Origin: Phyllobacterium endophyticum
GTDB lineage: Bacteria > Pseudomonadota > Alphaproteobacteria > Rhizobiales > Rhizobiaceae
Direction of reading: 5' to 3'
Assembly (NCBI RefSeq): GCF_003010935.1
Contig: NZ_PGGN01000003.1
Span: forward strand, 310,001-374,000
Length of the DNA stretch: 64,000 nucleotides
Made by a program: the position numbers and the translations under genes. Below are positions 30,936 through 47,806 of the stretch, piece by piece (the first letter of the stretch is position 1; each line of letters starts with the position of its first letter). The notes below the pieces were generated by a model that was given only the letters and a program-made list of their open reading frames with translations, ran no database searches and was not told the origin of the DNA.

Positions 30936-31901
30936 TTGGACCGAAAGTTAGATTCATTGAAGGACTTTAGAAATCTTCCCCTCCCGACACTGCGGACTTT
31001 CGAGGCGGCAGCGCGTCATCAAAGCCTGTCGAAGGCCGCGGCTGAGCTGCACCTCACCGACAGTGCGGTCAGTCACCAGTTGCGGAAATTGGAAAGTGCG
31101 CTGGGTTATGATCTTTTCAACAAAGCGGGAAGAGGTGTTGTTTTAACCGAGGCGGGCCAAGTGTTCGCCAAAACCGTCGCCACGGCGCTGCAGAATATTC
31201 TGGCTTCGGCGCTCCTGCTTTCCGAGGTGGGACAGGAAGGCGGGCGGCTTGATATTGCCTGTCCTCCAATGTTTGCGGGTGGATGGCTTGCCAAGCATCT
31301 GAAGGGTTTCTGCCGGGACCATCCCAGCGTGGAGTGCCATATCCGGCTCGCCGAGAACCAGAAAATCCATGAGATTGCAGATATCGATGTCGGAATCCTG
31401 TTCGGTAGCGGCGGATGGCCCCACAAATGGTCAACCCTCTTGGCTCACGTCAATATCACCCCCGTCTGTAGCCCGAGGTTATTCAACCAAATCGGAAAGA
31501 CCATCACAAAGGTATCGGATCTGCATGATGTGATTCTTTTGCACTGGGATGATGGTTCCGAATGGAGACGGTGGCTCACCGAGGCAGGTGCACAGGATCC
31601 GCACAGCTTTACGCGTGGCCTTTATTGCAGCGATCTGGGCATGGCGATAGACCTTGCCATCAACGGGACTGGCGTGGCCTTGGTCAGCGACACCCTCTCT
31701 TCGTCGGACCTTGCGACCGGAAATCTGCTGACGCCGTTTCCCTTCTCGATAGATGCGTTCGGCGGCTGGCATGTCGTTTGCAGTCAGGCGAGCTTGCAGC
31801 GCTCTAGCACGCGCGTTTTCATGAGATGGCTGCTTGGTCATTTTGGCGGTAGCGCAGCCCTTGACACTGCTTTGGCAGGCCCCGGCATGATGAACCCGTG
31901 A
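30936..31901 (+). CDS. LysR-family transcriptional regulator (GcvA-like)
   Basis: Regulator of 321 residues. The N-terminal winged helix-turn-helix reads PTLRTFEAAARHQSLSKAAA, then LHLTDSAVSHQLRKLE, with the GcvA-type start of the domain at about residue 15. A two-lobed effector domain follows from about residue 105. It lies ahead of, and in the same direction as, a polar amino-acid importer and a ureohydrolase. The 195-base gap between them contains a perfect 14-bp inverted repeat that could be its operator. GcvA-like members often sense amino acids. The start ATG near 30936 has no strong ribosome site, so a slightly different start is possible. Confidence 0.9.
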   Translation: MDRKLDSLKDFRNLPLPTLRTFEAAARHQSLSKAAAELHLTDSAVSHQLRKLESALGYDLFNKAGRGVVLTEAGQVFAKTVATALQNILASALLLSEVGQEGGRLDIACPPMFAGGWLAKHLKGFCRDHPSVECHIRLAENQKIHEIADIDVGILFGSGGWPHKWSTLLAHVNITPVCSPRLFNQIGKTITKVSDLHDVILLHWDDGSEWRRWLTEAGAQDPHSFTRGLYCSDLGMAIDLAINGTGVALVSDTLSSSDLATGNLLTPFPFSIDAFGGWHVVCSQASLQRSSTRVFMRWLLGHFGGSAALDTALAGPGMMNP

Positions 31902-31952
31902 CAAGCTATCACGTAAGGGTGGATTTCCGCACTTGTGAATGCTGAAAAGACC

Positions 31953-31987
31953 CCTGCAATACATGATGGATTTTCATGTATTGCAGG
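31953..31987. promoter_or_regulatory. Perfect 14-bp inverted repeat upstream of the amino-acid importer
   Basis: CCTGCAATACATGA (31953-31966) and TCATGTATTGCAGG (31974-31987) are exact reverse complements around a seven-base spacer. The repeat sits 51 bases after the LysR stop and 110 bases before the importer ATPase. The AT-rich centre and lack of a T-run fit an operator better than a terminator, though a LysR-gene terminator is possible. Confidence 0.6.
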
Positions 31988-32096
31988 AAGAATCATCAAT
32001 TGCCGAATTTTGTCTCATGCCATTAACTGCCACAACAATCAGGCAAAAAAGACCACGCTGCGACAGGGGTGTTTACGCAGTAAGTTGGGAGGCAGC

Positions 32097-32867
32097 ATGG
32101 AAAAACTCTCCGTTACCGGTATTCGTAAATCCTATGGCGATGTTGAGGTATTGAAGGGTATATCGCTCACTGCCAATGCCGGGGATGTCATCAGCATCAT
32201 CGGAGCCAGCGGCTCGGGCAAAAGCACGTTCCTGCGCTGCGTCAACTTCCTGGAACGTCCCAATTCGGGCAATGTTGTCATCAACGGCGAAACACTGAAG
32301 ACCGCCACGGATCGTGACGGCCTTTTGAGGTCAAAAGACAAGGCGCAACTGCAGCGTATGCGTAGCAAGCTGGCGATGGTCTTTCAGAATTTTTGCCTTT
32401 GGTCGCATATGTCGGTCATATCCAATATCGTCGAAGCCCCGATAAGCGTACTCGGCGTATCGCGCGACGAAGCGACCGATCGGGCGAAAGCCAATCTGTC
32501 CAAGGTTGGGCTTGGCCATGATGTTTTGCAAAAATATCCCTCACACCTTTCCGGTGGCCAACAGCAGCGCGTGGCCATAGCCCGCGCGCTCAGCATGAAT
32601 CCCGACGTCATGCTCTTTGACGAGCCGACATCGGCACTCGATCCTGAACTTGTCAGCGAGGTACTCAAAGTTATGCAGACGCTTGCCGATGAGGGTCGCA
32701 CGATGGTTGTCGTGACCCACGAAATGGGATTTGCCCGGCACGCATCGAGCAAGGTGGTTTTCCTCCACAATGGCGCTGTCGAGGAAGAGGGGGCGCCAGG
32801 AGATCTATTCGCAAATGCCCGCAGTGAGCGGCTGCAGCAATTCATGGCTGGTCGTCTCAAGCACTAG
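32097..32867 (+). CDS. Polar amino-acid ABC transporter ATP-binding protein (HisP-like)
   Basis: ATPase of 256 residues. The start [14 protein letters not shown] has a GGGAGG site upstream; the longer frame extends into the operator region. Walker A is GASGSGKST near residue 37, signature [15 protein letters not shown], Walker [15 protein letters not shown] and switch His in VTHEMGFA, with the HisP-type insert of about 20 residues after Walker A. It powers the two permeases encoded downstream. It begins an operon of ATPase, binding protein, two permeases and a ureohydrolase. Substrates of the class are Arg, Lys, His, ornithine or opines. Confidence 0.93.
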
Positions 32868-32954
32868 CCATGAATTCGGCGATCGGGCGGCGGGGTCGCT
32901 GTCGCCAGCCGATTTTACAAGAACACCATCAATCACAATCCAGAGGACGGACTT

Positions 32955-33719
32955 ATGAACAAGACTGTTAAATCTCTTCTTGCCGCGACAATGATCGCAC
33001 TGATCACGACTGCATCTCACGCGGCCGACAAGATCAAGATTGCCACGGACGCCACCTTTCCGCCCTTCGAATCGATCGATTCCAGCGGCAAGCTCGTCGG
33101 CTATGATGTCGAGCTGATGCAAGCCGTTTGCGATGCTGTCAAACTTGACTGCGATATTTTCAATGCGGCTTGGGATGGAATGATTCCCGGCCTGATCGAC
33201 GGCAAGTATGATGCACTGATCTCGCAATTGACAGTTACCGAAAAACGCCGCCAGATTCTCGCCTTCAGCGATATTTACGATCATCCAATTTTCCGTTTCG
33301 TTGCCAAGAGGGGCGCGTCGTTCGAGTTCACGCCCGAGGGACTCGCCGGCAAGACCATCGCGGTTCAGACAGGAACACCGATGGATGCATATATAACCAG
33401 CCATTATCCCAAGGCCATCATCAAACGCTACGATACGGGAAGTTCACCCTATCTCGAATTGACGGCGGGTCGCGCCGATCTCCATATCAGTTATCAGGCA
33501 CAGATCATTCACGGCTTCCTCAACTCGGACTCCGGCAAGGGTTTCGAGCTCGTGGGCCCCGAGCTGACCGGCAAGGATGCCAAGGAGTTCGGTGAGGGTG
33601 TCGCCGTTGCCGTCAACAAGAAAAACAGCGAGCTCATCAGCCAAATCAACAAGGGCCTGGCAACCTTGCGCGGGAACGGTCAACTCGCGGCGTTGAACAA
33701 AAAATACTTCGGCGAATAA
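32955..33719 (+). CDS. Amino-acid ABC transporter substrate-binding protein (ArgT/OccT-like)
   Basis: Periplasmic protein of 254 residues, SBP_bac_3 family. The signal peptide ends near SHAADKIKIATDA. The domain has the family start ATFPPFESIDSSGKLVGYDVEL and a GMIPGLIDGKYDALISQLTVTEKRRQ stretch around residues 76-101. Arg/Lys/opine-binding relatives share this pattern, so a basic or guanidino amino acid is the likely ligand. It lies 87 bases after the ATPase and six bases before the first permease. A second pair of binding proteins in this region (near 43.8 and 47.0 kb) belongs to another importer. Confidence 0.92.
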   Translation: MNKTVKSLLAATMIALITTASHAADKIKIATDATFPPFESIDSSGKLVGYDVELMQAVCDAVKLDCDIFNAAWDGMIPGLIDGKYDALISQLTVTEKRRQILAFSDIYDHPIFRFVAKRGASFEFTPEGLAGKTIAVQTGTPMDAYITSHYPKAIIKRYDTGSSPYLELTAGRADLHISYQAQIIHGFLNSDSGKGFELVGPELTGKDAKEFGEGVAVAVNKKNSELISQINKGLATLRGNGQLAALNKKYFGE

Positions 33720-33725
33720 GCTGTT

Positions 33726-34415
33726 ATGATCGCCGATTTCACCCGAACGATTCTTGCGGCAGGGGTAACAACCCTGCTGCTTGCCTTCGCATCCCTTATG
33801 GTCGCGATCGTGCTTGGGCTCATCGCTGCCTATTGCAAGCTGTCGCGCAGCTTCCTGCTTCGTGCCTGCGCGCAAATCTACACCTTCGTCGTTCGTGGTA
33901 TCCCTGATCTCGTGGTCATTCTGTTGGTCTATTACAGTGTGCCCGCAGTGCTCAACCAGCTGGGCGACAATGCCGGTTTCGAGGTGCGTGTCGAGTTCTC
34001 TCCGCTTTTCGCGGGTGTTGCGACGCTTGGCCTGATCTTCGGCGCTTATATGACTGAAACCTTCAAGACCGCCTTGATTAACATTCCCAAGGGACAGATC
34101 GAAGCAGCTGTCGCATATGGGCTGCGTCCGCGACGGGTATTCACGCACATTGTGTTGCCGCAGATGATCAGACTCGCTCTGCCGGGCTTTACCAACAACT
34201 GGCTGGTACTTGTGAAAGCGACAGCACTTGTCTCGCTGATTGGCCTGCAGGACGTCATGTTCCGGGCCAAGGGTGCGGCTGAGGCGACCGGAAAGCCTTT
34301 TACCTTCTATCTGATTGCCGCCGGCTTCTATCTCGTCGTAACCATTATTTCCATGCTGATTCTCGCGATGATTGCGCGCCGCTTCGAGCGCGGCATAAGG
34401 GAGATCACGTCATGA
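33726..34415 (+). CDS. Amino-acid ABC transporter permease (HisQ-like)
   Basis: Membrane protein of 229 residues with about five hydrophobic segments. The EAA loop reads IPKGQIEAAVAYGLRPRRVFTHIVLPQM near residues 118-145, and an early FVVRGIPDLVVILLVYY segment is typical of HisQ/OccQ permeases. It forms a heterodimer with the following gene product, and its last four bases overlap that start (ATGA). It begins six bases after the binding-protein stop. Confidence 0.92.
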   Translation: MIADFTRTILAAGVTTLLLAFASLMVAIVLGLIAAYCKLSRSFLLRACAQIYTFVVRGIPDLVVILLVYYSVPAVLNQLGDNAGFEVRVEFSPLFAGVATLGLIFGAYMTETFKTALINIPKGQIEAAVAYGLRPRRVFTHIVLPQMIRLALPGFTNNWLVLVKATALVSLIGLQDVMFRAKGAAEATGKPFTFYLIAAGFYLVVTIISMLILAMIARRFERGIREITS

Positions 34416-35104
34416 ATTGGGACATCATCGTCGAAAATCTCGGTCTTTACGCGGCAGGCGCAAAATTGACGCTGCTGTTGACCGTCGTATCGCTAGCCCT
34501 TTCGTTCTTTATCGCCGTACCGCTCGCCTTGGCGCGCAATAGTCCATCACCGTTGCTTCGCTATCCTGTCTTTGTCTATACCTTGATCTTTCGCGGAACG
34601 CCGCTCTTGGTACAGTTGTTTCTGATCTATTTCGGTCTTGCCCAATTTGAGCTGGTCCGAACGAGTATCGTATGGCCTTGGCTCTCAAGCCCGCTGGTCT
34701 GTGTGCTGATCGCCTTCGTAATGAACACGACGGCCTACAGCACAGAGATATTTGCCGGTGGTTTGCGCCACATCCCTTTTGGTGAAGTAGAAGCAGCGCG
34801 GGCCTATGGCATGTCGCCGCTGACCCGAGCCCGAAGGATACTCATCCCGGCGATGCTGACGCGCTCATTGCCGCTCTACGGCAACGAAACGATCATGATG
34901 CTGCAGGCAACTTCCCTTGCAAGTACGGTAACATTGCTTGAGATCACCGGCGTGGCGCGCAACATCACACTGACCTATTACGTGCAATTCGAGCCATACG
35001 CCACGGCAGCGATGATTTACCTGGTCTTTACGTTCATTCTGGTCGGGCTGTTTCAACTCGTCGAACGCAGATGGGCCGGGTATCTCGAACACAGGGTCGG
35101 CTGA
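34412..35104 (+). CDS. Amino-acid ABC transporter permease (HisM-like)
   Basis: Membrane protein of 230 residues, the HisM/OccM partner. It shows [20 protein letters not shown] near residues 65-85 and the EAA loop IPFGEVEAARAYGMSPLTRARRILIPAML near residues 123-150. Both are characteristic of polar amino-acid permeases. A gap of 104 bases separates it from the ureohydrolase gene downstream, which is in the same direction and possibly on the same transcript. Confidence 0.92.
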   Translation: MNWDIIVENLGLYAAGAKLTLLLTVVSLALSFFIAVPLALARNSPSPLLRYPVFVYTLIFRGTPLLVQLFLIYFGLAQFELVRTSIVWPWLSSPLVCVLIAFVMNTTAYSTEIFAGGLRHIPFGEVEAARAYGMSPLTRARRILIPAMLTRSLPLYGNETIMMLQATSLASTVTLLEITGVARNITLTYYVQFEPYATAAMIYLVFTFILVGLFQLVERRWAGYLEHRVG

Positions 35105-35208: not shown

Positions 35209-36171
35209 ATGAATCAGAAAGCAGATCTCGGTGCCCTTTTCGGAGCGGCATCGGAAACGACGACCTTTCTCGGCCTTGAGGCTTGCAGTGATCTTGATAC
35301 ATTGGTCGCACCAATCGCCTTGATCGGGGCGCCTTGCGGTACTTCCTATCGTTCAGTGGGAGCTTATTGCCGCAACGGGCCTGACGCATTGCGGCAGGCA
35401 ACCGGTTCTCTTACCGCCAACATCGATCGACATGATTTTGACAATGGCGGCGCTGTTTTTCCACAAACGCGTCTGCGGGCTGTCGACTGCGGAAACCTTC
35501 CCTATGACGAGAAGGATGGTGCCGGAAATCGTGCGTTGATCCGCAATGCGGTGCTCAAAGTCCTGCAGCGTGGCGCAGTGCCAATTCTGCTTGGCGGCGA
35601 CGATTCCGTCCCCATTCCCATGGTGGAAGCGATCGGTGCGGCTGCTGATGGGAGAAAATATACCATTTTGCAGATCGACGCCCATATCGACTGGCGCGAA
35701 ATCCACATGGGCGAGCGCATGGGCCTGTCTTCGACGATGCGTCGCGCGTCGGAAATGCCGCACATCGAGCGCATCATCCAGGTAGGTGCACGGGGAATTG
35801 GATCGGCGGCAACGCAGGATTATGAAGACGCAGTCGCATGGGGCGTTAACTTCGTTTCGGCATGCGATCTACACAGGCTTGGTGTCGAAGCAGCGCTTGG
35901 ACTGATCCCGGAGGGCAGTGACATCATCATATGCATCGATGCCGATGCACTGGATCCTTCGCTCGTTCCGGGTGTTATCGGTCGCGCGCCGGGCGGGCTG
36001 AGCTACTATCAGGTTGTGGATCTCATCAAGGGGGCAGCAGGACGGGGCAGGATTGCTGCCATGGACTTCGTCGAGTTCATGCCGGAGCGCGATGTTGATG
36101 GGATTGGCGCGCTCACTTTCGCGCGGGTGATTACCACCGCGCTCGGGATCATTGCCCGTCAAGCCAAATGA
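35209..36171 (+). CDS. Arginase/agmatinase-family ureohydrolase with altered metal motif
   Basis: Protein of 320 residues in the ureohydrolase superfamily, which splits guanidino compounds into urea and an amine. Conserved metal motifs: GGDDS at 129-133, DAHID at 157-161 and DADALDP at 244-250. In classical members the first motif is GGDHS, so a metal-ligand His is replaced by Asp132. The other ligands (D157, H159, D161, D244, D246) are intact. The start MNQKADLG follows an AGAGGAAA site; the longer reading has no homology. Downstream of a basic-amino-acid importer and near ornithine cyclodeaminase, it probably acts on arginine or a related guanidino acid. Agmatinase, guanidinobutyrase and other activities remain open. 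Confidence 0.87.
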   Translation: MNQKADLGALFGAASETTTFLGLEACSDLDTLVAPIALIGAPCGTSYRSVGAYCRNGPDALRQATGSLTANIDRHDFDNGGAVFPQTRLRAVDCGNLPYDEKDGAGNRALIRNAVLKVLQRGAVPILLGGDDSVPIPMVEAIGAAADGRKYTILQIDAHIDWREIHMGERMGLSSTMRRASEMPHIERIIQVGARGIGSAATQDYEDAVAWGVNFVSACDLHRLGVEAALGLIPEGSDIIICIDADALDPSLVPGVIGRAPGGLSYYQVVDLIKGAAGRGRIAAMDFVEFMPERDVDGIGALTFARVITTALGIIARQAK

Positions 36172-36474: not shown

Positions 36475-37407
36475 CTAATCGCGGGGTGTCAGATGAATTC
36501 CCGCAAGCGTGCAGCGGACCGACCCGCCGGCACGTTCTATCGTTGGGATATCCAGCGGGACAGGGCGGGCGCTTTCTTCGATCACGGCAACCTGATGGGG
36601 CTCCAGCGTAGCCAAAGCCGTGGTCGATAATGCAAGGACACGTCCGTCCTTGCCTTGGAGTTCTATCGCGTTGCCGGCAAACCGGGCAATCTGCTCGTTG
36701 CTCAGTGCGATAACCTGACGGCCAGATCGTTCTAATCTGGCAATGATTTCCTGCCGCCGCCCCGTGTCGGTCAGCATATCAAGACCCATCATGACAAATT
36801 CCGTTGCGACGCACATGAGGACATTGGTATGGTAGACCGCCCTGCCACGGCTATCGTGAGCGTCGAATGCCATGGGCTCGAAATTGAACTGGGTGCAGAA
36901 GCGTTCGAGCGCGATCGGATCTGTCCGGTCTGAACGGACTGCATAGGCAACGCGGTCGATGTGATCGAGAACCATCGCTCCCGTTCCTTCAAGAAAAAGG
37001 CCGTCATATTCGAGACCCGAATAGTCTATGATTTCCTGCACCCGGTATTGCTGCTTCAATAACTCAATCACGTCGCTACGCCGTTCGCGGCGGCGACTGA
37101 TAACTTTCATCGGGTAAACGGCGATCTGACCGCCGGCATGGGTCGAGAACCAGTTGTTTGGAAAGACCGAATCCGGTGTTTGCATTCCCAAGTCCTCGAA
37201 AAGATGGATTTTTATACCATTGCTTTGCAGAACCTCGGTCGCGCGGGTTATCTCGCTATAGGCAAGCGGCGCGAGGTCTTTGTGGCTCTCATCACTTGCC
37301 TGAAAATGATTGTCGGCCGCTGTATCGGTGTTAACATTGAAATGGTGGGGTCGCACCATGACGGCGGCAGACGGTGCTTGGATTGAAAAGGAGGAATGTC
37401 GGGGCAT
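36475..37407 (-). CDS. ctlX: Citrulline utilisation hydrolase CtlX-like (amidinotransferase/deiminase fold)
   Basis: Protein of 310 residues of the guanidino-group-modifying superfamily. The start shows VMVRPHHFNVNTDTAADN, which is typical of CtlX-type proteins. The catalytic set appears as the acidic/NN segment PDSVFPNNWF at 78-87, His193 in YHTNVLM and the nucleophile Cys299 in GGSVRCTLAGIHL. CtlX has been described as turning citrulline to ornithine, releasing ammonia and CO2. It lies 17 bases downstream of the ornithine cyclodeaminase gene, on the same strand, so the pair would take citrulline to proline. The name rests on sequence resemblance; arginine deiminase-like activity is an alternative. 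Confidence 0.85.
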   Translation of the reverse strand: MPRHSSFSIQAPSAAVMVRPHHFNVNTDTAADNHFQASDESHKDLAPLAYSEITRATEVLQSNGIKIHLFEDLGMQTPDSVFPNNWFSTHAGGQIAVYPMKVISRRRERRSDVIELLKQQYRVQEIIDYSGLEYDGLFLEGTGAMVLDHIDRVAYAVRSDRTDPIALERFCTQFNFEPMAFDAHDSRGRAVYHTNVLMCVATEFVMMGLDMLTDTGRRQEIIARLERSGRQVIALSNEQIARFAGNAIELQGKDGRVLALSTTALATLEPHQVAVIEESARPVPLDIPTIERAGGSVRCTLAGIHLTPRD

Positions 37408-37424: not shown

Positions 37425-38480
37425 TTATTGGCGGCAGCGTTGCAACATGCCGAAGAGGTCGCGTGGGTCATCCGGGTCTGCGATGATATCGAGGTTCTGG
37501 CACAAATCAGTGCCCGCAAGCCGGGCGCGGACGAAACGGAGCGCCGAGAAATCCTCAATAGCGAAGCCTACGCTGTCGAACAGCGTGATCTGTTGCGGGT
37601 TGCATCGTCCTGCCGCTTCACCCGAGACAACGCGCCAAAGTTCGGTCACCGGAAAATCTGCTGGCATTTGCTGAATCTCACCTTCGATGCGGGTCTGCGG
37701 CGCAAATTCGACGAAAGTATCGGATCGAAGCAGGATGTCACGGTGGAGTTCCGTTTTGCCGGGGCAATCGCCACCAATCGCATTGATGTGAATGCCCGCC
37801 CCAATCATATTGTCGGTCAAGATGGTGGCGAACTGCTTGTCAGCGGTGCAGGTGGTGATAATCTCGGCCCTCTCGATCGCCGCTTGCGGCGAGCAACAGC
37901 CAATAACTTCAAGTCCAGATCCGGCCAGATTGCGCCGGGTTTTCTCGGTGGCGCGGGGATCAATATCATAGAGCTTGATCGTTTCGATGCCGCAGACGGC
38001 CTTCATCGCGAGCGCCTGGAATTCGGCTTGGGCGCCATTGCCTATTATCGCCATTGTGCGAGCGCCAGAAGGAGCCAGATTTCTGGCAGCCATCGCAGAT
38101 GTGGCCGCCGTGCGCAGTGCCGTGAGCATTGTCATTTCCGATATAAGCACAGGGTAACCGGTGGATACTTCGGCAAGCAACCCGAAAGCGGTAACGGTCT
38201 GCAGTCCTTCGATGGTGTTCCTCGGGTGTCCATTCACATATTTGAAGCTATAGACAGCCCCATCTGATGTTGGCATGAGTTCGATCACGCCCTGACGGGA
38301 ATGACTGGCGATACGAGGTGTCTTGTCAAAACTCTCCCATCGCCGGAAGTCGTCCTCGATGACGTCGGTCAGTTCGCAAAGGAACTTTTCGATGCCAACG
38401 TGATGGATGAGGTGCATCATGTTTTCGACGCTGACGAAAGGAACCATTGCCTTATCGGACGGAGGGGAAAAGCTCATCAT
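37425..38480 (-). CDS. Ornithine cyclodeaminase
   Basis: Protein of 351 residues in the ornithine cyclodeaminase/mu-crystallin family. It carries a Rossmann NAD motif IIGNGAQAEFQALA near residue 145, the preceding TALRTAATSAMAARNLA helix with the ornithine-binding Arg, and a late IGGDCPGKTELH segment with the catalytic Asp. It converts L-ornithine to L-proline and ammonia with bound NAD+. It is the first gene of a two-gene operon with ctlX and divergent from an Lrp-type regulator, with a palindromic operator candidate between them. The double methionine start (MMSFS) leaves the exact first residue uncertain. Confidence 0.92.
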   Translation of the reverse strand: MMSFSPPSDKAMVPFVSVENMMHLIHHVGIEKFLCELTDVIEDDFRRWESFDKTPRIASHSRQGVIELMPTSDGAVYSFKYVNGHPRNTIEGLQTVTAFGLLAEVSTGYPVLISEMTMLTALRTAATSAMAARNLAPSGARTMAIIGNGAQAEFQALAMKAVCGIETIKLYDIDPRATEKTRRNLAGSGLEVIGCCSPQAAIERAEIITTCTADKQFATILTDNMIGAGIHINAIGGDCPGKTELHRDILLRSDTFVEFAPQTRIEGEIQQMPADFPVTELWRVVSGEAAGRCNPQQITLFDSVGFAIEDFSALRFVRARLAGTDLCQNLDIIADPDDPRDLFGMLQRCRQ

Positions 38481-38582: not shown

Positions 38583-38621
38583 GATGTGGCAGCTGACTTG
38601 TACTAATTGTAAAGGAACGTG

Positions 38622-39065: not shown

Positions 39066-39289
39066 CCTCCAAGGCTTCCTGCCCATTCGTGTGTGTGCTC
39101 TGGAACGGCGGCGGCCGCATCTGCCGTGGAGCGGTCCTTCATGATGGGGCGGCGTCGCAGGTGGAAACGCTATCAACCGATCCCATTGGAGCGAGGATAT
39201 GTCTTGCGGAACGCTTACCGTTCCCTCTTGCGAGGTCGCCGCTGCAAGGTCTGGCCGACGCTATACAAGCTCGCAATCCCGCGCTGTTG

Positions 39290-39784: not shown

Positions 39785-40453
39785 TTAGCCGTTATGAGAG
39801 ATGCCGTCTCCACTGAGATCCGCAGACTGCTTGATGTGCTTGACCGTAACGCGCTTCAGTTCTTCGGTATCCTTCGCAACCAGAGCATCGATCATCTGGT
39901 GGTGCTCCCGCGAAGATTGTTCAATCCGGGCCCGTGTTTTCCATTGTGACACCGGCGCCGAGGACGTCCTCTGGCGGATTTCGGTCACAAGGTTCACAAG
40001 TTCGCTGTTGCCACAAAGCGCAAGCAGTTCGCGGTGAAAGGCGAGATTGGCTTCGTAGAGCTCAATCATGGTTCCGTTCATGATGAGATCGTCAAAACGG
40101 CATGCGAGGTCCCTGAGCTTTTTCGTCGTCAGTTCCGAGGCCCTGGCAACGATCTTGTCCGCGACCGCAGTCTCAAGGATAACACGAACATCGCTCACTT
40201 CTGTCGCCTGACGGCCATCGGGCTCATAAACGTGATAACCGCGATTGGGGACATGTTCGACAAGACGTCTTTGAACAAGTCGGTCAAGCGCACGCCGCAC
40301 TTCCGGCCGGGTGCTTTGGTACCGTTGTTCGAGATCGATCTGTTTCAACCACACGCCCGGCGCGAGCACGCCCGCGAGGATATCGTGCAGGATCAAATCG
40401 GTGACATCGACGGTTTTGAGCTGTGACCTTGTTTTCGCTTTTGCTTCACTCAT
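39785..40453 (-). CDS. GntR-family regulator, FadR/FCD subfamily
   Basis: Regulator of 222 residues from the start MSEAKAKTRSQ, chosen for its GAGAGGGAT ribosome site. N-terminal winged helix (LILHDILAGVLAPGVWLKQIDLEQRYQ) at about 15-80, with RPEVRRALDRLVQRRLVEHV, then an all-helical FCD effector domain with the metal-ligand pattern (ANLAFHRELLALCGN and REHHQMIDAL). FCD proteins usually bind organic or amino acids. It is divergent from the M20/M28 and amino-acid importer operon, which it likely represses. A perfect 16-base palindrome sits in the shared region. Confidence 0.9.
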   Translation of the reverse strand: MSEAKAKTRSQLKTVDVTDLILHDILAGVLAPGVWLKQIDLEQRYQSTRPEVRRALDRLVQRRLVEHVPNRGYHVYEPDGRQATEVSDVRVILETAVADKIVARASELTTKKLRDLACRFDDLIMNGTMIELYEANLAFHRELLALCGNSELVNLVTEIRQRTSSAPVSQWKTRARIEQSSREHHQMIDALVAKDTEELKRVTVKHIKQSADLSGDGISHNG

Positions 40454-40566
40454 CCCTCTCTCCCGTGTCCCAGCCAAATGCGCGGGGCTCTGAGGCATTC
40501 ATCCTCACGAGATGTACGCCAGACAAATAGTTTTACCCAGAGGTTGCGTAAAAATTATTTGCGTCT

Positions 40567-40582
40567 AAATTGGTGCCAATTT
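40567..40582. promoter_or_regulatory. Palindrome AAATTGGTGCCAATTT, candidate GntR operator
   Basis: AAATTGG and CCAATTT pair exactly around TG, 34 bases before the M20 amidohydrolase start and 114 bases from the GntR/FCD start. The position between a divergent regulator and its probable operon and the TTGGTnCCAA core suit a FadR-type operator. Direct TTGCGT copies lie just upstream (from about 40548). Confidence 0.5.
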
Positions 40583-40616: not shown

Positions 40617-42041
40617 ATGAGAAATTCGGAAGAGGTCTGGCAAATCGTCGAGTCCAAGCGTGATGCATTCTTTGAATTGAGCGATCGCGTATGGGAGATG
40701 CCTGAGACGAACTACGAAGAATACCGCTCGTCGGACGCGCATGCCCATCTGCTTGTGAAAGAAGGGTTTCGCATCACCCGCGCCATCGCCAATTTGCCAA
40801 CGGCGGTGGTGGGCGAAGCAGGAGAGGGCGGACCAATCATCGCCATTCTCGGCGAATTCGACGCGCTCCCGGGCCTTAGCCAGGTAGCTGGACTGGCCGA
40901 AGAGCGGCCGATTGTCGAAGGCGGCAACGGGCATGGCTGTGGCCACAACCTTCTCGGGTCAGGGTCGATGCTGGCAGCAACTGCGGTCAAGGATTACCTG
41001 GCGAAAAACGGACTGAAGGGTCGCGTCCGCTACTATGGCTGTCCCGCTGAAGAAGGCGGCTCATCGAAGGGCTTCATGGTGCGTGCCGGCCTATTCGACG
41101 ACGTCGACATTGCCATTTCCTGGCATCCGGCAGCCTTTGCCGGCGTGAACAATCCAATCTCGCTTGCCTGCAACGAAATCAATTTCCATTTCAGCGGCCG
41201 CGCGTCGCACGCCTCGGCAACGCCGCATCTGGGACGCAGCGCCCTGGACGCTGTCGAACTGATGAATGTCGGCGTGAACTACATGCGCGAACATATGCCA
41301 TCGAGCGCGCGTATCCACTATGCCGTTACCGACACAGGCGGCTCTGCCCCGAATGTGGTTCAGGCCCGGGCCACCGTACGCTACCTGGTACGGGCGCGTG
41401 ACCTGCCGGAGCTCAATAGCCTTGTCGCGCGGGTCAAGAAGGTCGCAGACGGTGCGGCATTAATGACCGAGACCACCGTCCGCAGCCGCATTATCAGTGG
41501 CGATGCCAATCTTGTTGGCAACACGCCGCTCGAAACCTTGATGCATGCGCAACTGGAGCGTCTTGGCCCGCCTAATTTCGACGAGGCCGACCATGAGACG
41601 GCGCGGAAATTTCAGGAAACGTTCTCGCAAGAGGATATTCTATCCTCCTACAAGCGCTTCAATGTGACGCCCAAAAAAGGCCAGGCGTTGTGCGGCAGCA
41701 TTTTCCCCCCCCAAAGTGGTGACGGATCGATCGTCGGCTCGACGGATGTTGGGACGGTGAGCTGGGTTGTCCCGACAGTACAGATGCGCGGGGCGACCTA
41801 TGCCATCGGCACGCCGGGACATTCATGGCAGCTGGTCGCTCAAGGCAAGCTGCCTGCGGCGCACAAGGGCATGGAACATGCTGCCAAAGTGATGGCGGCG
41901 ACCGCCATCGACCTATTTGCCAATCCCGATCTCGTTGAGGCCGCCAAGGCCGATCATCGACAGCGTCTGGACGGAAAACCGTTCATCAACCCCATACCGG
42001 ATGATGTCGAGCCGCCATTGCCGGAGAACACGGATGTCTGA
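40617..42041 (+). CDS. M20-family amidohydrolase, AbgB-like
   Basis: Metallohydrolase of 474 residues similar to AbgB, the p-aminobenzoyl-glutamate hydrolase subunit. Metal-site motifs are present: GHGCGHNLLG near residue 102, PAEEGGSSKG near 144 and SWHPAAF near 167. A lid-domain segment ASHASATPHLGRSALDAV follows. It would cleave an acyl- or aroyl-amino acid amide bond and release a free amino acid in the cytosol. Its stop overlaps the M28-like gene by eight bases, so the two are coupled. The rest of the operon is an amino-acid importer, which suggests a conjugated amino acid as substrate. AbgA is absent. Confidence 0.9.
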   Translation: MRNSEEVWQIVESKRDAFFELSDRVWEMPETNYEEYRSSDAHAHLLVKEGFRITRAIANLPTAVVGEAGEGGPIIAILGEFDALPGLSQVAGLAEERPIVEGGNGHGCGHNLLGSGSMLAATAVKDYLAKNGLKGRVRYYGCPAEEGGSSKGFMVRAGLFDDVDIAISWHPAAFAGVNNPISLACNEINFHFSGRASHASATPHLGRSALDAVELMNVGVNYMREHMPSSARIHYAVTDTGGSAPNVVQARATVRYLVRARDLPELNSLVARVKKVADGAALMTETTVRSRIISGDANLVGNTPLETLMHAQLERLGPPNFDEADHETARKFQETFSQEDILSSYKRFNVTPKKGQALCGSIFPPQSGDGSIVGSTDVGTVSWVVPTVQMRGATYAIGTPGHSWQLVAQGKLPAAHKGMEHAAKVMAATAIDLFANPDLVEAAKADHRQRLDGKPFINPIPDDVEPPLPENTDV

Positions 42042-43710
42042 GACAGGTTTTGAACCGGACAAAGATCAGCTGATGGAACACATTCGCGAGTTTTCGCGCA
42101 GGGTGAAACTGTCCGGTACGGCCGAAGAACTTGAAAGTTTCCGCTATCTGCAAGCGCAGATGGAAAGCTATGGTTACGATGTCCGGCTCATCCAGCACGA
42201 TGCTTATATCAGTCTACCAGGCAAGGCGCGCGTCATTGTGGATAGCCGCATGCTGCGCTGCATTACCCATTCGATGTCCGTATCCACATCAGGCGTTTCG
42301 GCTGAAATCGTTTACGTCGGCGAAGGCACAGCGGCCGAGTTCAGCACAACGGACGTTGCCGGGAAAATCGTCCTCGTCGATGGTATAGCGAGCGAAGAGG
42401 TCGCTGCGCTTGCCAGCGTTGCCGGGGCGATCGGTCAGCTTCATATCAGTCCCAACGAGCATCTCTATGAAATGTGCGTGTCGCCTGTGTGGGGCAGCCC
42501 TTCACAGCATACACGTTCAATACTGCCGTCCACGGTCATCTGTTCCGTGCCAAATGATGAAGGGGCGAAGCTGCGGACACGCTGCGAGCAAGGGGAGGCA
42601 GTCACTATTTCCATGCAGGCCGAGGTCGATACCGGTTGGCGCAAAACGCCTCTGCTGATTGCTGAGCTGGGGTCGTTGGTCGGCAATCAAGACGAACCTT
42701 TCGTGTTGTTCTCGGGCCATCACGACACATGGCACTACGGCGTCATGGATAATGGCGGCGCCAATGCGACAATGCTGGAGGCTGGGCGCCTGCTTGCCGC
42801 CCATCGCTGCGAATGGCGAAGGGGGCTGCGCATCTGCTTCTGGTCGGGTCACTCACACGGGCGCTATTCGGGCTCGGCATGGTATGCGGACGAATATTGG
42901 ACCGAGTTGGAGCAGCGCTGCATCGCCCACGTCAACGTGGATTCGACCGGCGGCAAGGGGGCAAGTGTGCTCACCAATTCAGGAGTGGTCGACGAGTTGA
43001 AGGCAGTGGCGTTTGAGGCGGTCGAAGTCATCAGCGGCCAGAAACATGCCGGGCGGCGCCATGGTCGCGCCGCCGACCAGTCGTTCTGGGGCATCGGCAT
43101 TCCTTCGATGTTCGGAAGTCTCAGCCATCAGCCTGCGGGACCTGTCAAAATGCTGACGGCGCTCGGCTGGTGGTGGCATACCCCGCATGATACGATCGAG
43201 CACATCGATCCGCAAAACCTTGTACGCGATACGCGGATCGTTCTTGGCGCTCTGCGAGCGCTGCTGATGTCCCGTATCCTGCCTTATGATTATACGGCCT
43301 ATGCCGGTTCCCTGGCGGATGAAATCGCGCACCTCAAGCGGCAACTCGGCGACAGGCTGGATATCAGCGCCCTTGAATCGGGTGTGTCGTTTCTGCGGGA
43401 CAATGCGGCAAACCTGGTTGCCCGGTCGAAATCCGCTAGCGATGAAGAGACCCCACGTATCAATGCTGCGCTCATGCGCGCATCGCGCCGGCTTGTCCCG
43501 CTCAACTATACGACCGGCGAGCGCTTCCACCACGATTCAGCCCTGCCGCATCCGGTCTGGCCATCATTGGAGGGGATCAGACAACTGGCGCGGCAACCGG
43601 AAGGTTCGGCCGACCTACCGTTTTATGCGGTGCACGCGCGTCAAACGCGAAATCGCATTTGCCATGCCTTGCGTGAAGCCAATGCGGAACTGGAGGCGGT
43701 GCTGACCTGA
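42034..43710 (+). CDS. M28/PA-domain peptidase-like protein with atypical active site
   Basis: Protein of 558 residues from the overlapping start MSETGFEPDK. A PA-type insert lies at about 85-200, and the M28 (glutamate carboxypeptidase II-like) domain begins near 215. Expected zinc positions are H230/D231 (GHHDTWHYG), D239 (MDNGGAN), D303 (NVDSTGG) and a late WWHTPHD. The canonical catalytic and bridging glutamate pair, normally EE in a FxxEExGLxGS segment, is replaced by GHSHG at 272-276 in FWSGHSHGRYSGSAW. Either it uses a different base or it is not a classical peptidase. It shares an operon with the M20 enzyme and an importer. I cannot name a substrate. Confidence 0.82.
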   Translation: MSETGFEPDKDQLMEHIREFSRRVKLSGTAEELESFRYLQAQMESYGYDVRLIQHDAYISLPGKARVIVDSRMLRCITHSMSVSTSGVSAEIVYVGEGTAAEFSTTDVAGKIVLVDGIASEEVAALASVAGAIGQLHISPNEHLYEMCVSPVWGSPSQHTRSILPSTVICSVPNDEGAKLRTRCEQGEAVTISMQAEVDTGWRKTPLLIAELGSLVGNQDEPFVLFSGHHDTWHYGVMDNGGANATMLEAGRLLAAHRCEWRRGLRICFWSGHSHGRYSGSAWYADEYWTELEQRCIAHVNVDSTGGKGASVLTNSGVVDELKAVAFEAVEVISGQKHAGRRHGRAADQSFWGIGIPSMFGSLSHQPAGPVKMLTALGWWWHTPHDTIEHIDPQNLVRDTRIVLGALRALLMSRILPYDYTAYAGSLADEIAHLKRQLGDRLDISALESGVSFLRDNAANLVARSKSASDEETPRINAALMRASRRLVPLNYTTGERFHHDSALPHPVWPSLEGIRQLARQPEGSADLPFYAVHARQTRNRICHALREANAELEAVLT

Positions 43711-43739: not shown

Positions 43740-43755
43740 GAGGCCTTGCGGCCTC
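43740..43755 (+). terminator. Short hairpin before the first binding-protein gene
   Basis: GAGGCC and GGCCTC pair around TTGC, 30 bases after the M28-like stop and 20 bases before the binding-protein gene. It is short and lacks a T-run, so it is more likely an mRNA-processing or attenuation hairpin that separates enzyme from transporter expression than a full terminator. Confidence 0.4.
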
Positions 43756-43774
43756 CAAACAAAGGGGAATGAAC

Positions 43775-44626
43775 ATGAAGAAAAAATTGCTGCTGGCTAT
43801 CATAGCAACCACTTTGGCATTCACGGGTACGGCGGCAAACGCCAAGGACTGGACCCGTGTCAAAGTCGGAATCGAAGGTGCCTTTCCGCCCTGGAACATG
43901 ATTGACTCTGCCGGCAAATTGTCGGGCTTCGATGTCGACCTGATCCAGGATCTGTGCACGCGCGCCAAGGTCGAATGCGAACTCATCACGGGCGAATGGA
44001 CGAGCCTTATCCCCAGTCTGAACGCCGGCAAGTTCGACCTCGTCATGACGCTCGGCATCAATGAAAAGCGCAAGCAGGTCGTCGACTTCACGGTGCCCTA
44101 TGCGAGTGGCGTTGCCAGCTTTCTGACGGTGAAGGACGGAACGGTAGCCGCTCTTCCCATGACAGGCGAGCGCCTCAACCTGAATGACCATGCCAAGGCC
44201 GACCCCGTGATGACCGAGATCGGCAAGGAGCTCAAGGGCAAGTCTGTCGGCGTTGTCGGCTCGACAAGCCAGGAACAGCTTATCCAATCCTATTTTGGCA
44301 ATACCGTTACGGTCCGCACCTATAAGAGTTCGCCCGAACGCGATCTCGACCTGAAGGCAGGCCGTATTGATGCGGGTTTCGACAGTGGCGTCTACGCAAC
44401 CTCGATGTTGGCCAAGCCAGGCAATGAGGACCTGCAGATGTCCGGCCCCCTTGTCAAAGGCGCCATGCTTGCAACGGAAGTAGCGCTTGGCACGCGCAAG
44501 GGCGAGACCGACCTTCGCGAAAAGTTCGATGCTGCGATCAAAGCTGCGGCCGAGGCAGGCGTCATCAAGACGCTTTCGGAAAAGTGGAGCAAGCTCGATC
44601 TCACGCCAACATTCAGCGGAAACTGA
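43775..44626 (+). CDS. Amino-acid ABC transporter substrate-binding protein (first of two)
   Basis: Periplasmic protein of 283 residues, SBP_bac_3 family. MKKKLLLAIIATTLAFTGTAANA is a clear signal peptide, and an AAGGGG site eight bases ahead supports this ATG over one two codons earlier. Family pattern: GIEGAFPPWNMIDSAGKLSGFDVDL, then SLIPSLNAGKFDLVMTLGINEKRKQVVDF. The NocT/OccT-like length and pattern suggest octopine/nopaline-type or other Arg-derived ligands, but this is only a family resemblance. It lies 64 bases after the M28-like gene and 70 bases before the first permease. Confidence 0.91.
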   Translation: MKKKLLLAIIATTLAFTGTAANAKDWTRVKVGIEGAFPPWNMIDSAGKLSGFDVDLIQDLCTRAKVECELITGEWTSLIPSLNAGKFDLVMTLGINEKRKQVVDFTVPYASGVASFLTVKDGTVAALPMTGERLNLNDHAKADPVMTEIGKELKGKSVGVVGSTSQEQLIQSYFGNTVTVRTYKSSPERDLDLKAGRIDAGFDSGVYATSMLAKPGNEDLQMSGPLVKGAMLATEVALGTRKGETDLREKFDAAIKAAAEAGVIKTLSEKWSKLDLTPTFSGN

Positions 44627-44696
44627 ACGCGCAGTTTCATGAGTAGGGCACAGCTATGCCGTTCAATCATCTCCATGAAGTCGGATCGCACGCGTC

Positions 44697-45416
44697 ATGA
44701 ACCAGCCAGACTTCCTTGACGTCGTCAGCTTTGCACCGGGTGGGTGGGGCGGTGCCCTTCTGGCTGGAGCCTGGATGACGATACTCATCGCCATATCGGG
44801 ATTTCTGATCGGTTCGATCATCGGCACATTCGGTGCTTGGGCAAAGGTCTCCGGCGGCAGGACCATACGGGCCATCGCTGATGGATATACGACTGTGCTG
44901 CGCGGTATTCCCGACCTTCTCGTCATCTATCTGTTCTATTTCGGCGGCAGTGCAGCGGTAACAGCGATCGGGCGTTTTTTCGGTTCGGAGGGGTTTATCG
45001 GCTTTCCGGGTTTTTTGGCCGGTGCATTGGCGGTGGGTATTACGTCGGGCGCGCAGCAGACAGAGGTGTTTCGCGGGGCATTCAAGGCCGTGCACCGGGG
45101 TGAAATAGAAGCGGCTGTCGCTTGCGGCATGTCGCGCGCTGTGCGGTTCCGCCGGATCATCGCACCATTGACGCTGCGTCATGCGTTGCCCGGTATGGGC
45201 AATGTCTGGCAGGTCGTGTTGAAGGAATCGGCTCTCGTTTCGATTACGGGCGTCGCGGAATTGCTGCGTCAGGCCCAGGTGGGCGCCGGATCAACCGGAA
45301 TGCCTTTCAACTTCTATGTCGTGGCCGGTGCGATTTACCTGATGATCTCGACCTTCTCAGGTGCGCTGCTGCAATGGTCCGAGCGCTACTTTTCACGCGG
45401 CGTCAGGAGGAACTGA
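44697..45416 (+). CDS. Amino-acid ABC transporter permease (HisQ/OccQ-like)
   Basis: Membrane protein of 239 residues with about five hydrophobic segments. TTVLRGIPDLLVIYLFYFGGSAAVTAIG near residues 62-90 and the EAA loop VHRGEIEAAVACGMSRAVRFRRIIAPL near residues 129-155 are characteristic of the HisQ/OccQ permeases. Its stop overlaps the following permease start by one base (TGATG). It would pair with that gene product, and a binding protein lies on each side of the permease/ATPase set. Confidence 0.92.
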   Translation: MNQPDFLDVVSFAPGGWGGALLAGAWMTILIAISGFLIGSIIGTFGAWAKVSGGRTIRAIADGYTTVLRGIPDLLVIYLFYFGGSAAVTAIGRFFGSEGFIGFPGFLAGALAVGITSGAQQTEVFRGAFKAVHRGEIEAAVACGMSRAVRFRRIIAPLTLRHALPGMGNVWQVVLKESALVSITGVAELLRQAQVGAGSTGMPFNFYVVAGAIYLMISTFSGALLQWSERYFSRGVRRN

Positions 45417-46135
45417 TGGATTGGACATTCACGTTTGAAACGTTCATCAGCCTCGTTGCGGCCATTCCATTGACGCTGCAACTTGCTGCCGCGTCGATCC
45501 TGCTCGGCGCTTTTCTCGCCCTCGGTCTGGCGTTGTTCAGGCTTTCCGGAGTTCGCATTCTGGACTGGTTTGCCAGGTTTTACGTATTCGTGTTTCGCGG
45601 CACGCCGCTCCTGGTGCAAATATTTCTCATCTACTACGGGCTCAGCCAGTTTCCGGCGGTGCGCCATACGATTTTGTGGCCGATATTGCGCGAGCCCTAC
45701 TGGTGCGCCGTCATTGCACTGACGCTCAATACTGCCGCCTATGCCAGCGAAATCATCCGCGGCGGTCTGTTGTCGGTTCCGCACGGCCAAATAGAAGCCG
45801 CCCGTGCCTGCGGCATGCCGCGCCTTATGGTTTTCCGGCGGATCGTCCTGCCTCTTGCGATTCGGCAGGCATTGCCGGGATATGGCAACGAGATGATTTC
45901 CATGGTCAAGGCGACATCGCTTGCCTCGATCATCACGCTGATGGAAGTCACCGGGGTTGCCGCGAAAATCATCTCGGAAACCTACCGCGCCATCGAGGTC
46001 TTCATCGTCGCTGGCGTGATTTACCTGACCATCAATTTCCTGCTCACGCGGCTGGTGCATGTCGTCGAATACATGCTGAGCCCGCATCTTCGCGCGCCGC
46101 GGCTGCAGACCCCCGTTCAAGGAGAGAGCAAATGA
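45416..46135 (+). CDS. Amino-acid ABC transporter permease (HisM/OccM-like)
   Basis: Membrane protein of 239 residues, start [10 protein letters not shown]. It shows [20 protein letters not shown] near residues 60-80, an AEIIRGG-like segment ([25 protein letters not shown]) and an EAA loop before [19 protein letters not shown]. It is the second half of the channel and overlaps the ATPase start by four bases (ATGA). It resembles the first importer's HisM but is clearly a separate gene, not a recent duplicate. Confidence 0.92.
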
Positions 46136-46914
46136 ACGCTCAGGTGCCTGCAATCACGCCATTGGCGCTCGACGTCAAGGATCTGCACAAGAGTTTCGGT
46201 AATGTCGAGGTGCTGAAAGGGATTTCGCTCGGCGCACGCGAAGGCGAGGTCGTTTCGATCCTCGGGTCTTCAGGTTCCGGCAAGTCGACCCTGCTGCGCT
46301 GCATCAATCTTCTTGAAGTGCCCGATTGCGGCGACGTAACGGTCGGCGACGAGACGATCCGCATGCAGCGCACGCGCGATGGCAAGAGCCGGGCGGCGGA
46401 CCAGGCACAGGTCGAACGTATTCGCTCACGGCTCGGCATGGTGTTCCAAAGCTTCAACCTGTGGTCGCACAAGACCATCCTCGAAAACGTCATCGAAGCG
46501 CCGGTCCACGTGCAAAAGCGCCCACGCAAGGAGTGCGTGGAAGAGGCCGAAGCGCTTCTGGCGAAAGTTGGTATCGCTGAAAAACGCGATCATTATCCCT
46601 CGCACCTGTCAGGTGGCCAGCAGCAACGCGCCGCCATAGCGCGCGCTCTCGCCATGCGGCCGAAGGTGATGCTGTTCGACGAGCCGACCTCGGCGCTCGA
46701 TCCGGAGCTTGTCGGCGAGGTGCTGCGCGTCATGCGTGGTCTGGCCGAAGAGGGCCGCACCATGCTGGTGGTCACCCACGAAATGGGCTTTGCCCGCGAT
46801 GTCTCAAGCCGTGTCGTCTTCCTGCACAAGGGACTCGTTGAGGAGGACGGCCGGCCTGACCATGTTTTCGTCAAGTCTAAATCCGAACGATTTAAACAGT
46901 TTATCAAAGGTTGA
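46132..46914 (+). CDS. Amino-acid ABC transporter ATP-binding protein (HisP/OccP-like)
   Basis: ATPase of 260 residues, start [12 protein letters not shown] after a GGAGAG site. Walker [10 protein letters not shown] near residue 45, signature [15 protein letters not shown], Walker [15 protein letters not shown], switch His VTHEMGFA. The 20-residue insert after Walker A that marks the HisP subfamily is present. It closes the importer core, but one more binding-protein gene starts 37 bases later, so the transcript continues. Sequence is similar to the ATPase at 32.1 kb, in agreement with two related importers in one island. Confidence 0.93.
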
Positions 46915-46951
46915 ATTGATCAGCCGCGATCAAAAAGGGGAATTCCTGGAA

Positions 46952-47806
46952 ATGAAATACGTAATCTTTACGCTCAAAGCCCTGCTGTTGGCGGCGTTTG
47001 TCTTTTCGGCTACCGCCCATGCGGAAGGCAAGAAATGGACGCAGGTCACCATCGCCACGGAAGGCGCCTTCAAGCCGTATAACTTTACCAGGCCCGACGG
47101 AACACTCGACGGTTATGAGATAGAGCTTTCGAAGTATCTTTGCAATTACATGAAAGTTGAGTGCAAGATCGTCGTGCAGGACTTCGACGGGATGATCCCG
47201 GCGCTCAATGCCGGCAAGTTCGACGCCATCATGTCGGGCATGTCGGCGACCACGAAGCGTGAGCAGATTATCGACTTCAGCCAGTCCTATGGTTCTACCG
47301 GCCAGGCTTTCGCAACGTTGAAATCAAGCCCGCTGGCAAGCATGGAATTCACAGGGGAGGTTTTCTCGCTGGCGTCCAATGAGGCAGGCGCCGTCAACGC
47401 TTTGGAGAAGCTGAAGCCACTCTTGCAAGGCAAGACCATCGGCGTGCAGACCGCTTCGACAGGCGCGACCTTCGTCGAAAAATACCTGAAGGATGTTGTC
47501 GACGTTCGCGAGTACAAGACCACCGAGCAACATGATCTTGATCTTGCTGCGGGCCGTGTTGATCTCGTTATGGCCTCCATGGCTTATCTGACGACATCGA
47601 CCGCCAAGCCAGGCAATGAGGAAATGACCGTCGCTGGTCCAAGGTTTCAAGGTGGGTTCCTGGGCAAAGGCAGCTCGGTCGGTATGCGCAAGAACGAACC
47701 GAAATTGAAAGCTATGTTTGACAAGGCCATCGATGCAGCCAAGGCCGATGGCACGATCAAAACATTGTCGCAGAAGTGGTTTGGCTTCGACGTTACGCCC
47801 CTTTGA
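46952..47806 (+). CDS. Amino-acid ABC transporter substrate-binding protein (second of two)
   Basis: Periplasmic protein of 284 residues, SBP_bac_3 family. MKYVIFTLKALLLAAFVFSATAHAEG is a signal peptide. Family pattern: IATEGAFKPYNFTRPDGTLDGYEIEL, then GMIPALNAGKFDAIMSGMSATTKREQIIDFSQSY. It differs substantially from the one at 43.8 kb, so the importer may use two receptors with different ligands. It is the last gene of the operon; about 220 bases of non-coding sequence follow, without a recognised terminator. Confidence 0.91.
   Translation: MKYVIFTLKALLLAAFVFSATAHAEGKKWTQVTIATEGAFKPYNFTRPDGTLDGYEIELSKYLCNYMKVECKIVVQDFDGMIPALNAGKFDAIMSGMSATTKREQIIDFSQSYGSTGQAFATLKSSPLASMEFTGEVFSLASNEAGAVNALEKLKPLLQGKTIGVQTASTGATFVEKYLKDVVDVREYKTTEQHDLDLAAGRVDLVMASMAYLTTSTAKPGNEEMTVAGPRFQGGFLGKGSSVGMRKNEPKLKAMFDKAIDAAKADGTIKTLSQKWFGFDVTPL

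Follow-up and report, generated by a model that had tools for sequence, protein, structure and literature searches.

A candidate guanidino-acid scavenging module beside a citrulline-to-proline cassette in Phyllobacterium endophyticum, and its separability from a neighbouring transport operon

We analysed a region of 17 kb (positions 30936-47806) in a 64,000-nucleotide stretch of the Phyllobacterium endophyticum genome (5.5 Mb), bases 310001-374000 of contig 6, which is referred to here as the window. Gene classes were assigned from Pfam and NCBIfam scans of the window proteins, and every class that an earlier note on this DNA had named was found across the region (Table 1). The genes can be sorted into three blocks: A, with a LysR-family regulator, an ATP-binding cassette (ABC) importer and a ureohydrolase; B, with the citrulline hydrolase CtlX, an ornithine cyclodeaminase (OCD) and an Lrp/AsnC regulator; and C, with a GntR regulator, two hydrolases of the M20 and M28 types, and a second ABC importer with two binding proteins. 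The earlier note had taken the whole region as one integrated system, of which we keep the association of A with B and drop block C. In our reading, AB and C are two catabolic units that are neighbours by happenstance, and C is independent. The guanidino/ureido theme ending in ornithine and proline, also put forward there, fits the gene content of AB.

Several of the listed open reading frames (ORFs) were overlong, the true genes being shorter, and starts were corrected from in-frame ATGs and, for the ureohydrolase, also from its relatives and a structure model. The listed ORFs of the two HisP-type ATPases open at 31935 and 45676, and the likely starts are 32097 for the first ATPase, 35209 for the ureohydrolase and, in the second importer, 45416 for the second permease, 46132 for the ATPase and 46952 for the third binding protein. 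The three SBP_bac_3 binding proteins were detected by Pfam at 32955, at 43769 and in the ORF at 46709.

With CtlX, M28 and the ureohydrolase as marker proteins, we searched 397 genomes from the order. Of these, 24 have CtlX (E <= 1e-60), and the ureohydrolase is likewise present in 24 at E <= 1e-100, or in 11 at E <= 1e-160, a cut-off set post hoc where the identity in the list falls from 76% to 68%. In all 11 genomes with such close orthologs CtlX lies on the same contig, with a gap of 45 bp to 16.8 kb (hypergeometric probability of 3e-15, or 5e-14 minus the window genome, with kinship ignored and 5 families represented). At the looser cut-off CtlX is present in 13 of the 24 ureohydrolase genomes (6e-12), and in the two additional ones (G156 and G450) it is not near the ureohydrolase. 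The co-occurrence that the earlier note had proposed to check is thus far beyond chance for A with B.

Gene maps were made for 12 AB genomes besides that of the window, ten with close orthologs plus G092 and G042 from a family sample of 121. In all 12 the importer genes (for the ATPase, the binding protein and both permeases) are grouped with that of the ureohydrolase, LysR accompanies them in 7, and OCD and Lrp are each found in 10 of the fetched stretches, one of the two without OCD reaching a contig end. Among the five genomes without LysR, four have Lrp between the ureohydrolase and CtlX, and in the fifth the ureohydrolase is followed directly by CtlX. Named genomes were also scanned with the ureohydrolase alignment, and the best 80 of at least 549 loci were taken, some of them from genomes that coincide with the mapped ones; the gene caller missed the ureohydrolase gene in 4 (L106, L132, L143, L167). 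CtlX was detected within the fetched flank (up to 10 kb, often limited by a contig end) in 16 of these 80 loci (L096, L099, L101-L110, L114, L117, L119, L125), from genera that include Labrys, Rhizobium, Mangrovicella, Shinella, Faunimonas, Aureimonas, Kaistia, Martelella, Ancylobacter and Leisingera. In a CtlX tree of 40 rows the label "linked" needs 9 parsimony changes, at least 3 of them forced by strongly supported branches, so the linkage of A to B was likely gained repeatedly. A further genome, G205, has the same importer and CtlX-OCD-Lrp genes with a different ureohydrolase bearing GGDHS; this gene (L070:7493-8356) is non-orthologous and closest to formimidoylglutamase. An amidinohydrolase step therefore seems demanded there, whatever its substrate.

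Block B corresponds to a known system. CtlX and OCD both score over their curated cut-offs, and the window CtlX has FPNN at residues 82-85 and HTN at 193-195, with Asn for the substrate-binding Asp. Among 17 aligned CtlX proteins HTN is found in all and FPNN in 16 (FLNN in L080). These two motifs distinguish CtlX from deiminases (PMC9007349), and mutant fitness ties ctlX and ocd, which are often adjacent, to citrulline use (Price et al. 2022, PMC9007349). The words ureohydrolase and agmatinase have 0 occurrences each in the main text of that paper. Within the open-access literature searched, only two papers were found to name CtlX together with citrulline. Block B, the citrulline route, is thus already known, and the novelty lies in block A, where the metal site of the ureohydrolase and the binding pocket of the importer are both unusual.

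The ureohydrolase belongs to the Arginase superfamily (PF00491, 171 bits vs 22) and lies below every NCBIfam cut-off among those listed, including those of arginase RocF (TIGR01229, 56 bits vs 227.6) and agmatinase (TIGR01230, 101.5 vs 174.3; PRK02190, 102.8 vs 302). Its closest solved relatives by sequence are an agmatinase, a guanidinobutyrase, a plant arginase and a guanidinopropionase. The predicted structure has a predicted local distance difference test score (pLDDT) of 83.9, with residues 1-50 under 50, and its closest folds in Foldseek are metformin hydrolase, agmatinase and guanidinobutyrase chains, the four best all being metformin hydrolase. Among the 50 chains listed, template modelling scores are 0.62-0.74 by query length and 0.70-0.87 by target length, at 23-28% identity.

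The active site differs from that of these relatives at three places. Asp replaces a metal-ligand His, in such a way that the usual GGDH, present in 5/5 solved sequences compared, reads GGDD in 20/20 aligned relatives, in 79 of the best 80 named loci (L143 was unread) and in 7 of 9 more distant homologues (the other two unread); the seeds of the named-genome search held the DAHID and MRRASE stretches and not the GGDD motif. The position of the acid/base His is Leu219 in the window protein and Tyr or Phe in the distant group; it is His163 in E. coli agmatinase and Asn in agmatinase 1wog (PMC8125230). Finally, Trp208-Arg209 follows DAHID in 20/20 relatives, and Arg209 aligns with Tyr155 of E. 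coli agmatinase and with Asn130 of human arginase, which has been called a determinant of arginine specificity (positions and role per PMC8125230). The same 20 relatives all keep DAHxD, the two DxD aspartates and the Glu. Among other homologues with Trp-Arg, the motif is GGDC in one from a Rhizobium rhizogenes plasmid and GGDH in others, so the metal-ligand position varies within the clade. The GGDC protein, annotated "agmatinase", sits on plasmid pOC-Colt5.8 near conjugation genes (L183:7992-8903). GGDD paired with arginase gave nothing in the open-access literature searched, most subscription papers lying outside it. DcsB, an N-hydroxyarginine hydrolase from a biosynthetic context, is without the Mn_A His, where it has Cys, and without the acid/base His.

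The binding protein of block A (254 residues) has arginine-, histidine- and LAO-binding proteins as its closest solved relatives. Its pocket was compared with that of LAO in an alignment that also held 34 homologues (identity 55% or more); some genomes appear twice in it, and the distinct sequences number 29, LAO included. LAO Asp11, Asp30, Ser69 and Arg77 are kept in 35/35 proteins. Asp161, which together with Ser72 holds the ligand alpha-amino group in a pocket that also contains Arg77 (PMC5740067), is replaced by Tyr in 35/35, which sets the group apart from LAO-type proteins for free L-amino acids. Further changes found in 35/35 are Trp for Phe52, Gln for Ser70, Pro for Thr121 and Met for Gln122. 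Asp occupies the Asp161 column in LAO and in the histidine-binding-type 2m8c and 1hpb, and in 3tql the column is a gap next to an Asp; the opine-binding proteins OccJ and NocT have Asn or Ser (PMC5740067). The octopine signature Ser91-Asn111-Thr163-Ala164-Asn202 is absent, with Thr, Pro, Met and Tyr at LAO 72, 121, 122 and 161 and the Asn111 site unread. Judged from these residues, the predicted ligand would have a carboxylate and a cationic side chain and would lack a free alpha-ammonium.

We propose, with a rough probability of 0.48, that AB scavenges a guanidino acid without a free alpha-amino group beside the recycling of citrulline to proline, C being an independent unit. The LAO-derived importer, under predicted LysR control, would take up a guanidino acid with a carboxylate and a guanidinium and no free alpha-ammonium, candidates being 4-guanidinobutyrate, 2-ketoarginine and argininic acid, and the GGDD ureohydrolase, whose activity and substrate are predicted, would cleave it into urea and an amino product. 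Urease is present in 13/13 AB genomes. Alongside, and under putative Lrp control, CtlX would convert citrulline to ornithine and OCD ornithine to proline. A and B would be separate transcription units kept together by selection, perhaps because both handle arginine-derived compounds, a functional coupling that is likewise a prediction. In Bradyrhizobium bacteroids fed with arginine, labelled citrulline, ornithine and 4-guanidinobutanoate are held together (PMC7268258), and under such conditions both A and B could be of use at once. A wider and more tentative proposal is that the GGDD proteins make up a widespread subfamily of their own, altered in the two-metal site and lacking the acid/base His, which would hydrolyse arginine analogues without the alpha-amino group and would form, with the re-tooled LAO importer, an undescribed guanidino-acid scavenging module repeatedly linked to the citrulline cassette.

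Several observations weigh against the guanidino-acid proposal. A close ureohydrolase is missing in 13 of the 24 CtlX genomes; and among eight importer-ureohydrolase loci without flanking CtlX (L093, L094, L095, L097, L098, L100, L113, L124), four have CtlX elsewhere in the genome and in the genomes of the other four no CtlX was found. Neither half thus needs the other, and A and B are separable yet strongly associated. The CtlX tree would also fit a single gain of linkage followed by several losses. On the enzymatic side, the change of metal ligand could mean low or no activity, ctlX was important on ornithine too, and biochemical proof for the CtlX family is called missing by the fitness study itself (both PMC9007349). 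In the pocket, Thr replaces LAO Ser72, keeping one possible amino-group contact. The mutant OccJ-N202D did not differ from the wild type with octopine or arginine, and LAO-Q122A acquired the ability to bind octopine (PMC5740067), so the position of LAO 161 alone is not decisive and the ligand prediction rests on the set of changes and not on one; an opine-like ligand for the AB binding protein is conceivable given LAO-Q122A. Finally, the L075 locus of G450 has a true arginase (310 bits vs 227.6) between an Lrp gene and CtlX-OCD, a hint that the partner reaction could be just the conversion of arginine to ornithine.

This last arrangement leads to an alternative that we regard as rather unlikely, in which AB would be an arginine-plus-citrulline island, a divergent arginase feeding OCD with ornithine and the importer carrying arginine and citrulline. 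Besides the arginase of G450, it is favoured by the fact that OCD and CtlX both centre on ornithine, by an arginase-like gene beside OCD in the AB locus of Aureimonas frigidaquae (L106), and by three AB genomes (G361, G507, G496) having no arginase over the curated cut-off. Against it, 10/13 AB genomes own a separate arginase over that cut-off (at G000:C5:551726 in the window genome), LAO Asp161 is replaced by Tyr, and the ureohydrolase falls far short of the arginase model, as given above.

It is improbable that the ureohydrolase homologue is a non-catalytic or partner subunit, comparable to the beta subunit of metformin hydrolase, whose metal site is degenerate (PMC11399263). One metal-ligand His is missing, no His stands at the acid/base position, the four best folds are chains of that enzyme, and related plasmid clusters carry two ureohydrolase genes around an importer; on the other side, DAHxD, the DxD aspartates and the Glu never vary among the relatives, Asp can bind metal, and 10 of the 12 other AB stretches have a single ureohydrolase match, G239 and G315 having a second, partial one.

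Observations around the ureohydrolase gene in other loci are as follows. Two ureohydrolase genes flank an amino-acid ABC importer beside LysR in L184:7968-13046 and L185:5971-11784, in L185 with a urea carboxylase-associated gene behind the set, and these are possibly two-subunit ureohydrolase systems. A marine Rhodobacteraceae contig (L140:2507-10957) holds three ureohydrolase-family genes, one with GGDD and two with GGDH, and L146 is similar; in Labrys okinawensis a fragment of a second ureohydrolase (72% identity) lies near the intact gene (L099:13724-14023). A saccharopine-dehydrogenase-like gene, assigned from a scan of the L098 copy, is convergent with the ureohydrolase in L098:10993-12117 and L100:10993-12096, with an Lrp-family gene behind it. 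Among 20 neighbour genes scanned, many of those from the more distant loci were housekeeping or phage genes without a clue to the substrate. Canavanine or N-hydroxy-arginine as substrate is kept as a lead only: a Cys/Met-type pyridoxal phosphate enzyme follows the ureohydrolase in 2 of the best 80 named loci (L097 and L124; Pfam for L097 only), but its nearest solved structure is that of methionine gamma-lyase, and it reaches none of the NCBIfam cut-offs listed. An Ldh_2-type gene is found at most 7 genes away from the ureohydrolase in 4 of the 80 (L102, L114, L125, L133; Pfam for L102 only). A route to 2-ketoarginine through an Ldh_2 ketimine reductase was set aside, the L114 copy being closer to malate/sulfolactate dehydrogenase than to DpkA.

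Block C was studied as a unit in other genomes. The module of GntR, M20, M28, binding protein 2, two permeases and binding protein 3 is found in four other loci (L081, L082, L083, L089), with an ATPase within it in three; L083 showed none in the interval from the second permease to binding protein 3. In the gene maps the second ATPase, whose query was out of frame (4 stops), carries the name of the first. The AbgB-like hydrolase, M28 and second importer, which the earlier note had assigned to the same pathway as AB, thus form an operon of their own in four other genomes, and as this operon occurs elsewhere without AB, the independent inheritance that the note had named as refuting a single system is what was found. 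M28 itself is present in 9/397 genomes (E <= 1e-120); for the family-sample matches, regions were fetched for 3 of the 8 genomes besides that of the window. In seven other genomes the fetched M28 regions (L084-L088, L091, L092) hold M28 without the rest of the operon, though L085 and L088 have weak M20 matches apart from it. A second region of G052, L090, holds M20 and M28 only. In plasmid records no single place covers 80% of the 17 kb, and the best listed matches cover parts of A, B or C: that of the Phyllobacterium sp. T1018 plasmid falls in C, with M28 and one binding protein missing there, the best of the Shinella sp. WSC3-e plasmid in A, and that of NGR234 in CtlX-OCD. That the whole 17 kb is one pathway is therefore very improbable: it has for it the adjacency in the window genome, the presence of both units in G367 and an overlap of M28 with the ureohydrolase above chance when the window genome is included (0.023 with all M28 matches, 0.004 with the four closest), and against it that of the 9 M28 genomes only these two have a close AB ureohydrolase, that the units are around 127 kb apart in G367, that the overlap minus the window genome is one genome and not significant (0.19; 0.07 with the closest), and the lack, noted above, of a plasmid record covering 80% of the region in one place.

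Unit C probably imports and cleaves an amide-linked amino-acid conjugate. The closest solved relatives of its two binding proteins, which stand beside amide hydrolases, are octopine- and nopaline-binding proteins. For AB, opine catabolism is not favoured, since its genes include none for an opine oxidase and the octopine signature is absent.

The earlier note had also given each regulator its own operator-like palindrome, which is borne out for one of them, GntR. A core TTGGYGCCAA between GntR and M20 is aligned in the window and in three of the four other module-C loci (two of one genus), and the fourth carries TTGACGCCAA where the core aligns. The pattern, derived from this alignment itself, has one site in the window when both strands are read, with a chance mean of 0.10 and as many sites in 4/100 shuffles. 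Another palindrome is located 5' of LysR (30535-30558). In the OCD-Lrp intergenic region no inverted repeat of at least 8 nt was reported (distance limit 40), and an alignment of seven such regions revealed no Lrp operator visible by eye.

Table 1. Genes and candidate sites of blocks A, B and C in window coordinates.
Feature	Position	Strand	Basis
LysR-family regulator of importer block	30936..31901	+	Pfam LysR_substrate and HTH_1; same stretch in 7/12 other AB genomes
ABC ATPase, HisP type	32097..32867	+	NCBIfam PRK10619 top but below cut-off; in-frame ATG; 12/12 other AB genomes
Periplasmic binding protein, LAO-like, Tyr180 for LAO Asp161	32955..33719	+	SBP_bac_3
ABC permease, HisQ type, AB	33726..34415	+	Pfam, NCBIfam, gene maps
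ABC permease, HisM type, AB	34412..35104	+	Pfam, NCBIfam, gene maps
GGDD ureohydrolase	35209..36171 (start moved from 35071)	+	PF00491 171 bits; alignments; model
CtlX citrulline hydrolase	36475..37407	-	NF046062 393 bits vs 334; FPNN and HTN motifs
Ornithine cyclodeaminase (OCD)	37425..38480	-	NF005762 572 bits vs 350
Lrp/AsnC regulator, divergent from OCD-CtlX	38619..39065	+	Pfam; 10/12 other AB genomes, fetched stretch
GntR/FCD regulator, block C	39785..40498	-	Pfam; divergent from M20 in L081, L082, L083, L089
Palindrome AAATTGGTGCCAATTT, candidate GntR operator	40567..40582	.	between GntR and M20
M20 amidohydrolase (AbgB-like), block C	40617..42041	+	TIGR01891 244 bits vs 154
M28 peptidase-like hydrolase, block C	42034..43710 (ORF opens 41917)	+	PF04389; in-frame ATG 42034, putative start
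Binding protein 2, block C	43769..44626	+	closest solved relative an octopine-binding protein
ABC permease, HisQ type, block C	44697..45416	+	Pfam, NCBIfam
ABC permease, HisM/ArtM type, block C	45416..46135	+	Pfam, NCBIfam, in-frame start
ABC ATPase, block C	46132..46914	+	Pfam, NCBIfam, in-frame start
Binding protein 3, block C	46952..47806	+	closest solved relative an octopine-binding protein

Between blocks B and C, an ORF of 130 residues at 39199 matched no Pfam or NCBIfam family and had no homologue in the fetched comparison loci. Directly upstream of block A (23752-30482) lie an amidase homologue and a Dpp/Opp-type peptide ABC transporter, and such genes also adjoin the A block in Shinella (L186, L094) and Pararhizobium (L093); their identity to the L186 genes is 33-51% for the window and 30-43% for L093, so this link may be chance. 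Downstream of block C (49123-50961) an adenylate/guanylate cyclase-domain protein with TPR repeats is encoded.

If the guanidino-acid proposal is true, many soil- and plant-associated Alphaproteobacteria would own a route for guanidino nitrogen that is still uncharacterised, and the fold of the ureohydrolases would work with a set of metal ligands other than the usual one. The published citrulline cassette gains a frequent partner, and the analysis shows which part of the 17 kb belongs together.

We compared AB with known systems. Block B resembles the CtlX-OCD citrulline utilisation genes (PMC9007349) in having ctlX beside ocd, in the family score and in the FPNN and HTN motifs, and differs from them in being tied to the LysR-ABC-ureohydrolase unit. 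The AB binding protein shares Asp11, Asp30 and the carboxylate Arg with LAO and the opine-binding proteins, and Trp and Gln at LAO 52 and 117 with OccJ and NocT (PMC5740067); unlike them, it has Tyr, Met and Pro at LAO 161, 122 and 121 and a length of 254 residues. By its described activity, a possible counterpart of the ureohydrolase is SpeB2 of S. meliloti, a rhizobial enzyme of this kind that handles 4-guanidinobutanoate and 2-ketoarginine (5-guanidino-2-oxopentanoate) (PMC7268258). With agmatinase, GbuA, GpuA, plant arginase and metformin hydrolase the window enzyme has in common the arginase fold and the DAHxD, DxD and Glu ligands, whereas GGDD, the Leu at the position of the acid/base His and the Trp-Arg after DAHID set it apart from them.

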